Positions 30,740 through 32,441 of a stretch of DNA of 64,000 bases are shown here, one piece after another. The translations under genes and the position numbers were made by a program. The notes beneath the pieces are model-generated. The model was not told the DNA's origin. It did no database searches and worked only from the letters and a program-made list of their open reading frames with translations. Numbering within the stretch: the stretch's first letter is position 1; each line of letters begins with the position of its first letter. This stretch comes from Haloarcula halobia (lineage in GTDB: Archaea > Halobacteriota > Halobacteria > Halobacteriales > Haloarculaceae), in contig NZ_CP119787.1 of assembly GCF_029338255.1 (NCBI RefSeq), forward strand, positions 1,922,001-1,986,000, read 5' to 3'.

Positions 30740-30866
30740 ACGTTACTATCTGTGCACACGGCCGGTGGGACGTGTTCGGCGATGGATACAGTTCAACCGA
30801 AGGGGGTGGCGGTGAAAACGATTGGCGTTCAACCGTCGAATCCACCGTTATACATTGAGACTGTTC

Positions 30867-30874
30867 GTCTCAAT
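30867..30874. repeat. 8-base target duplication, left copy
   Basis: GTCTCAAT, repeated exactly at 31590-31597 on the other side of the element. Confidence 0.85.
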
Positions 30875-30890
30875 GGCTCTGTTGAAATCC
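30875..30890 (+). repeat. Left 16-base terminal inverted repeat
   Basis: GGCTCTGTTGAAATCC; exact inverse at 31574-31589. Confidence 0.85.
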
Positions 30891-31034
30891 CCAAATAGTG
30901 ATAAGTCTCTACGATCGTGCTGCATACAGCGCGCGAATGCACCATCGGACAAACCCTCGATTCGGGTTTAGCCTATCGTTCGATACAGACGAGATACAAT
31001 GTAGTCGGGACCGCGACGTTTCGTGATGGCTGTG

Positions 31035-31424
31035 TCAGGGCTCGACCTGGCGAAACCACAATCCGAGTCCAACCAGCAAGATACCCGTCACTACCCGCCA
31101 GCGACCGTCTATTGCTATGCCTGCCAACGACGCTGTGCTGCCTCCCGACCAATTCCAGTATAACTCAAGCAACAAGAGACTGATCGCCAACACTCCGGTC
31201 ACGTAGGCGCTGGCTGCAATCGTCTTCTGTGCCGTCGGTCGGGTGTAGAGAAACACGGCCAACACCGCGGCGAACAAAATAGCAGTGGTTCCAAGAACGT
31301 TCTGCTCGTACAACAGCACTACGAACGCGATCGGAATTCCGACAACCACGACCAGACGCCGACGCTCAGTGGACCCAACGAATTCACTGATATCACCGAC
31401 AACAGTTCGTGGATGCTTGTCCAT
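31035..31424 (-). CDS. Cargo membrane protein of the transposon-like element
   Basis: 129 residues with four predicted membrane helices (about 23-42, 45-60, 70-90, 105-125): RLVVVVGIPIAFVVLLYEQ, TTAILFAAVLAVFLYT, ASAYVTGVLAISLLLLELYW and RWRVVTGILLVGLGLWF. Charged N-terminus (MDKHPRTVVGDISEFVG). No recognised family. It lies fully within the terminal inverted repeats, so it is moved as cargo. Upstream (31425-31440) is a small inverted repeat. Function unknown. Confidence 0.65.
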   Translation of the reverse strand: MDKHPRTVVGDISEFVGSTERRRLVVVVGIPIAFVVLLYEQNVLGTTAILFAAVLAVFLYTRPTAQKTIAASAYVTGVLAISLLLLELYWNWSGGSTASLAGIAIDGRWRVVTGILLVGLGLWFRQVEP

Positions 31425-31573
31425 CCCTCTACGAGGGTCTTGTCAGCCATACCTTTTCGGTACGTACGCGGGTCTACAGAACGTGTGATTCGGTTCTTTC
31501 CCTCTGAATTGAATCCACTCACCGTGCTGCACTCATCCTCTGCATCTTGCATGCCAGTCTTGTCAGAGTGAGT

Positions 31574-31589
31574 GGATTTCAACAGAGCC
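31574..31589 (-). repeat. Right 16-base terminal inverted repeat
   Basis: GGATTTCAACAGAGCC, followed directly by the second GTCTCAAT duplication (31590-31597). Confidence 0.85.
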
Positions 31590-31714
31590 GTCTCAATGCA
31601 TACGGCTGACACAGTATCAGACATTACACAAAGATCACTTCGTGTCCCCCTCCCTCTGCAATCAGGGGTGGGACAGGCATAAAATATTATAAAACCGACA
31701 CTATAGAGTTATCC

Positions 31715-32441
31715 ATGGATATCACCGAGATACTCTCGACGGAGTTCACCGAGTTCGACATCGGAACCCCCCTCTAAGGTCGCCGGGGCGTTCGAGAACC
31801 AGGAACTCGATGCCGTCGTCGTAACGATGGCGACGAGTATCGCGGCGTCGTCAGTCGCCGACAGCTGGCGTCCTCGTCCAACCAGCCGTCCCCGAAGGTC
31901 GGCTCACAGGCACAGCACGTCCCGACCGTCGAGCGCACCGCTCGACGAGGTCGTCGAGACGATGTTCGACCGAGCGATCTCCTCGCTCGTCGTCACGGCC
32001 GACGACACCGACGAGCCGGTCGGTATCGTCACGAAAACGGACGTCATCGAGGCGCTCACCCGGGAACGTGACGACCGGAACGCCGTGCAGGTGTTCGGGC
32101 TCGACCTGCTCGAGGGGATGACCTACGACGACGTCTCGGCGCGGATCGAGAACACGACCTCGAAGTACGGCGAGATGAGCGTGATCAAGGCCAGCATCGG
32201 ACTACAGGAGCACAAAGAGCAATCGTGGGGCGTGCCGCTGGTGCTGGCACGGATCCGACCGGTCACCGACCGTGGCTATTTCACGGCCGATGGAGAGGGC
32301 TACGGTGCCTCTCATGCCCTCCGTCTCGCAGCGAACGCCGTCGAACGCCAGCTGCTCAAGGGGAAGACCTACGGCCAGTCGAAGAAGCAGGCGGCCACAG
32401 ACGAGCAGGCACGACTGTACGGCTGGTGGCTCGGTGGGTGA
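31715..32441 (+). pseudogene. CBS-domain protein with RaiA/HPF-like C-terminus, frameshifted
   Basis: Starts MDITEILSTEFTEFDIGT at 31715 and reaches a stop at 31775 after a C6 run; removing one C continues SKVAGAFENQELDAVVV. A second shift near 31825 continues NDGDEYRGVVSRRQLASSS, and a third near 31930 leads to APLDEVVETMFDRAISSLVVT and on to the C-terminus. The reconstructed protein has two CBS motifs, including DDTDEPVGIVTKTDVIEAL, and a C-terminal part (SIGLQEHKEQSWGVPLVLARI...DGEGYGASHALRLA) like ribosome hibernation factor/RaiA domains. Three shifts make this a pseudogene unless the assembly is wrong. A TATA-like TATAAAA lies about 25 bases upstream. Confidence 0.7.

Follow-up and report, generated by a model that had tools for sequence, protein, structure and literature searches.

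We identify the segment at positions 30875–31589 of the window, that is, of the whole 64,000-nucleotide stretch analysed (C1:1922001–1986000 of a 3.48 Mb host genome, G000), as a probable mobile insertion cassette: the transposase-free version of an IS5-family transposon that carries a passenger, nearest to the branch represented by the elements L286, L287 and L289. We put the probability of this reading at about 85%. In haloarchaea at large, the same ends recur on either side of dozens of genes that are unrelated to one another, together with matching IS5-type transposases, so that the window element seems to be part of a widely distributed system that moves single genes.

The element is a 715 bp unit bounded by inverted copies of GGCTCTGTTGAAATCC, the terminal inverted repeats at 30875–30890 (plus strand) and 31574–31589 (minus strand), which agree at 16 of 16 positions; immediately outside them the 8-mer GTCTCAAT is directly repeated (target-site duplication, 8 bp, at 30867–30874 and 31590–31597). 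These coordinates confirm the complete 715-base insertion with perfect 16-base ends and an exact 8-base duplication that the first-pass annotation had described. Within the window, the 16-mer occurs at these two sites only, with up to three mismatches allowed (a mean of 0.35 occurrences expected). The extended ends are of type A (30875–30944, plus strand; inner part 30916–30938, CGTGCTGCATACAGCGCGCGAAT) and type B (31520–31589, minus strand; 31525–31554, GCATGCAAGATGCAGAGGATGAGTGCAGCA). A check of the ORFs found no transposase gene inside the 715 bp. The cargo gene, at 31035–31424 on the minus strand, encodes a 129-aa membrane protein.

On removal of the insert, the target forms the palindrome TATACATTGAGAC-tgttc-GTCTCAATGCATA, with its left arm at 30849–30866 and the duplicated 8-mer in its right arm. 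A palindromic target as a general rule was rejected, as a single site of 65, the window's own, lies in such a palindrome. The gene downstream of the element (31716–31940) has a frame that, by eye, seems broken: read from a start at 31716, it meets a stop about 20 codons on, close to six consecutive C, with an apparent continuation in another phase.

The ends of the window element match those of an IS5-family group (DDE_Tnp_1; ISHla2/ISHxa2 type) and appear to belong to it, not to IS6. When species genomes were scanned for GGCTCTGTTGAAATCCTCA, at least 119 stretches matched, and among the 80 listed nearly all were labelled haloarchaeal. Complete elements were found by pairing ends through an exact 8 bp duplication. 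Several of those with window-type ends encode a 273-aa DDE_Tnp_1 (PF01609) protein, loci retrieved with this protein show window-type ends, and plasmid annotation places its close relatives in the IS5 family as ISHla2 and ISHxa2. Every full-length transposase found between window-type ends was an IS5-family DDE_Tnp_1 protein. Since the window element has no transposase inside, it would be a derivative of this group and not itself an IS. More distant IS5 relatives (~41% identical, 935–940 bp) were rejected: their ends are GGCTCTGGTGAATCGC or similar, they are passenger-free, and they do not match the inner ends.

Counting all loci collected, 70 elements combine window-type or related ends with an exact 8 bp duplication. 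None of 732 offset control comparisons shows an exact 8 bp match, so the repeats outside these end pairs are not due to chance. Removal of five matches of the distant 935–940 bp group leaves a census of 65, which is not a random sample, as the searches favour the consensus end and the transposase. All 65 duplications differ, and in the target 8-mer position 1 is mostly R and position 8 mostly Y. A full-length transposase is encoded by 27 of the 65 (1193–3686 bp), each of which has an extra (passenger) segment; a passenger ORF was called in 26 of these 27, and short ORFs among them may be spurious. The other 38 (226–3815 bp) have no full transposase gene, and a cargo ORF was called in 32 of them.

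The cargo of the transposase-less set includes HalOD1, an AsnC-type regulator, GNAT, an AstE/AspA-type enzyme, an SBF-family transporter and Pycsar genes. Across the census, passengers are nearly all mutually unrelated, the exceptions being three HalOD1 domains, two DUF7344 proteins and the arsenic-transporter pair discussed below. An element of Halorubrum californiense DSM 19288 (L182:2243–4173, exact duplication GCTTTGTT) carries a nucleotide cyclase and a PycTM protein, likely a Pycsar anti-phage pair, and only the first 31 codons of its transposase remain. Another of the same group, on Halorhabdus tiamatea pHTIA (L432:2363–5146, duplication ATGTCGGT), contains a nested ISH3-family transposase gene. 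No exact match to the 19-base consensus end was found in viral contigs.

The transposase-bearing elements are alike from the transposase-side tip to about nt 885, just past the transposase gene, beyond which their passengers diverge. The ends of the cassettes form two pairs, A/B and C/D. End A of the A/B cassettes corresponds to the cargo-side end found in L286, L287 and L289, three elements with transposases ~68% identical to the ISHla2 type; end B has the look of a transposase-side tip fused with what comes after the stop codon of the transposase gene. C/D cassettes show the equivalent junction with the ISHla2/ISHxa2 transposase branch. The window element is an A/B cassette. Its inner end A agrees with the cargo-side end of L286, L287, L289 and L265 (0 of 1000 shuffles reach the score), all of which bear a transposase and exact duplications and are located in other genomes; no match was found to L168, L227 or L294. 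Its inner end B resembles the post-stop segment of L286/L287/L289 weakly (11–63 of 1000 shuffles), and for many siblings the match of end B to the post-transposase boundary is clear (0 of 500 shuffles). Element L265 combines an ISHla2-type transposase-side end and a type-A end within one exact 8 bp duplication, which indicates that the ISHla2-type enzyme group uses A ends. A hairpin at the boundary motif was dropped from consideration, as the motif has a palindromic look in some elements that is absent in others.

These comparisons suggest how such a cassette could arise and move. The transposase-bearing elements consist, in order, of a transposase-side tip, the transposase gene, a short conserved boundary, a passenger gene and a cargo-side end. 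Loss of the transposase gene from between tip and boundary would leave the passenger gene flanked by end B, which is the tip plus boundary, and by end A, which is the cargo-side end. Ends A and B would then be bound by a related transposase produced elsewhere in the cell, and the unit would be inserted at an 8 bp R......Y target, duplicating the target. We infer that an IS5-type transposase acts on the window cassette in trans in this manner, and that the cassette originated by loss of the transposase gene, not by exchange of cargo on an already reduced element.

A serious, if tentative, alternative is that a selfish non-autonomous lineage lost its transposase a single time and then exchanged its cargo repeatedly by recombination at the conserved ends or boundary, in place of many independent losses of the transposase gene. 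It concerns the origin of the cassettes and is compatible with their mobilisation in trans. Consistent with it, all subfamily-1 cassettes have the A/B layout in common with a different cargo almost each time, and cassettes can share partial content: a 3424 bp transposase-less cassette on Haloferax lucentense pSVX82-3 (L409:662–4085, exact duplication GAACAGCA) contains an HTH gene, merA and an arsenic-transporter gene together with the transporter's A end. However, the A/B and C/D subfamilies each have the corresponding junction with a transposase branch of their own, which hints at an event that happened more than once, and the Pycsar-bearing element, with its 31 retained transposase codons, would represent an intermediate stage of transposase loss.

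The full 715 bp window element has one copy in the host genome; searches of 145 and of 392 haloarchaeal genomes, and of plasmids, yielded no other complete copy. An empty target site with both flanks was not found in relatives; the left and right flanks match different places. The first-pass annotation had looked to further copies with the same ends and cargo and different duplications as the mark of a mobile cassette. This expectation failed for the window cassette, which is single-copy, and was borne out by a sibling of 1248/1249 bp that encodes a 344-aa SBF-family transporter (an arsenic resistance protein by Haloferax annotation). The two copies, in Halorubrum salipaludis (duplication GTTCATGT) and in a genome of a different family (G039; GTACATCC), are 98% identical, and their immediate flanks are unrelated beyond about a dozen bases. 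Downstream of both lies a gene region that is 74% similar, at different distances, which places the insertions in comparable gene neighbourhoods; the sites and duplications still differ. In the remaining genomes with the SBF gene, similarity is limited to the gene region (≤79% identity). On sequence evidence, it is the arsenic-transporter sibling, not the window cassette, that is shown to move without encoding a transposase.

The host carries a second transposase-less element, of 375 bp, with C/D-type ends and an exact duplication of CAAAACAC (L004:1501–1875; C1:544196–544570), which contains a possible 48-aa zinc-binding ORF. A degenerate 898 bp element in the same genome contains an ORF that is universal-stress-like by eye. 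The only related transposase of the host is an 84-residue remnant near C1:801600–801850, 80% identical to L168, so a trans source is absent from this assembly, and the window cassette is probably unable to move unless a transposase comes in from outside.

The cargo gene is the only ORF in the element with haloarchaeal codon bias and scores as coding. Its 129-aa product, which has hydrophobic helices, fell into no Pfam or PADLOC family, in agreement with the earlier description of the sole gene inside as a membrane protein of no known family. An AlphaFold2 model built from 7 sequences had a mean pLDDT of 59, too low for a fold search. Homologues are present in seven other genomes (30–58% identity), of which six haloarchaeal ones are 34–58% identical over nearly the whole length, and no window-type ends were found around the homologues within the fetched stretch (~1.5 kb on each side). 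In G028, by eye, RPP30-like and Pop5/Rpp14-like genes flank the homologue, with a proteasome-subunit-like gene adjoining. The gene differs from its homologues most often at third codon positions. Given homologues outside elements and mostly third-position differences, the cargo was apparently an ordinary gene of the chromosome before it became a passenger, and the membrane protein is presumably a mere passenger. The cargo of another cassette (L189:131–728) resembles, by eye and possibly by chance, a neighbour of the cargo homologue in G064 (L065:1945–2361).

The properties of this gene bear on another explanation, by which the element is a decayed ordinary IS whose interior was replaced or degraded, the ORF being a chance reading frame. 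Its low G+C content (0.54, or 54%, versus 0.64, or 64%, for the window) and the presence of siblings (226–467 bp) without a clear gene are in line with such decay. We nevertheless consider it improbable, because the ORF is intact and scores as coding, has stand-alone homologues in the six haloarchaea from which it differs mainly at third codon positions, and lies between perfect ends, which are not those of a decayed IS.

The first-pass annotation had described a complete transposase-less insertion with cargo, of a kind movable in trans, and that picture stands; its proposed link to IS6 does not. Mobilisation by an IS6-family transposase is very improbable: 8 bp duplications and GG-starting ends with TGTT and an AAA motif are in keeping with IS6 elements in general (PMC7986276), but the duplication is not specific to IS6, readable haloarchaeal IS6 ends differ, and the full-length transposases between window-type ends all belong to IS5-family DDE_Tnp_1. 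Archaeal IS6 elements with readable ends have GGCACTGTCTAGTT or GGYRGTGTTCAGATAA-like termini, and the host's own copy, intact-looking and 743 bp long, ends in GGCACTGTCTAGTT. IS6 was rejected as the mobiliser, as the PF13610 loci of the host and its relatives carry other ends; no IS6 transposase (PF13610) was found between window-type ends. IS1595/ISH4 was rejected, as PF12762 elements with readable ends start with CGCTCTTGTGAAG, and so were the other PF01609 transposases of the host, near which matching ends were not found.

Taken further, the cassette reading raises the idea that haloarchaea have a dedicated single-gene shuttle, functionally comparable to integron cassettes, which we regard as rather unlikely at present. 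Such a shuttle would consist of an IS5-type group whose members regularly carry a passenger beside a constant boundary just after the transposase gene; transposase-less cassettes would be derived from this group and spread between genera, metal-resistance and anti-virus genes included. If transposition in trans were shown, the cassettes would provide haloarchaea with one way of exchanging small genes singly, often genes for membrane proteins of unknown function, and many lone "hypothetical" genes on haloarchaeal plasmids may belong to them. The cassette ends could also serve as ready-made tools for moving genes in haloarchaea.

Mobile insertion cassettes (MICs) and transporter ISs (tIS) are established notions (PMC3129680). 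MICs such as MIC231 of Bacillus cereus (De Palmenaer et al. 2004, cited in PMC3129680) are described as IS ends around a passenger, transposase-less and dependent on a transposase in trans. MIC231 and the window element are alike in their IS ends, their passenger gene, the absence of a transposase and the existence of a related complete element. They are unlike in that the host here is archaeal, the transposase is of IS5 and not that of IS231, and the cargo varies in almost every element. IS231 itself belongs to the IS4 family. With IS-type ends and a duplication, no transposase, a passenger unrelated to transposition and a matching complete IS elsewhere, the window element is, as far as its sequence goes, an archaeal MIC in kind.

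Transporter ISs are insertion sequences with passenger genes (PMC3129680; PMC7986276). The transposase-bearing relatives described here qualify as such, with a transposase and an unrelated gene, whereas the window element is without a transposase. ISHla2 of Halorubrum lacusprofundi and ISHxa2 of Halopiger xanaduensis have the same terminal sequence as the window element; ISHxa2 has an exact 8 bp duplication and passenger genes, and ISHla2 a 57-aa passenger ORF. Unlike the window element, both encode a transposase, and they have the transposase-side end and another cargo-side end in place of the A/B pair.

A catalogue of transposase-free elements in haloarchaea lists mostly non-coding MITEs (PMC3119063). 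Like the window element, these MITEs and an ISH2-type element are transposase-free, with inverted repeats and target duplication; they are moved in trans, as is proposed for the window element, and the ISH2-type element, likened here by description, has a non-transposase ORF inside (PMC3119063). The MITEs differ in being mostly non-coding and <500 bp, with no diverse cargo described (PMC3119063), whereas the window element spans 715 bp with a 129-aa gene and is thus not a short, non-coding element. Hlac_3088 is the passenger gene of a Halorubrum lacusprofundi transposon, a further haloarchaeal case of a transposon with a surface-protein gene of possible use to the host (PMC10544981). It differs as a lone, transposase-bearing case, compared here by description.

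No description of the present haloarchaeal cassette population was found in the literature searched, whose scope excluded subscription papers and ISfinder. MICs and passenger-bearing ISs have so far been known singly and mostly from bacteria; here, one haloarchaeal IS5 group shows both forms with a gene that is nearly always different, arsenic transport, mercury reductase and Pycsar defence included.
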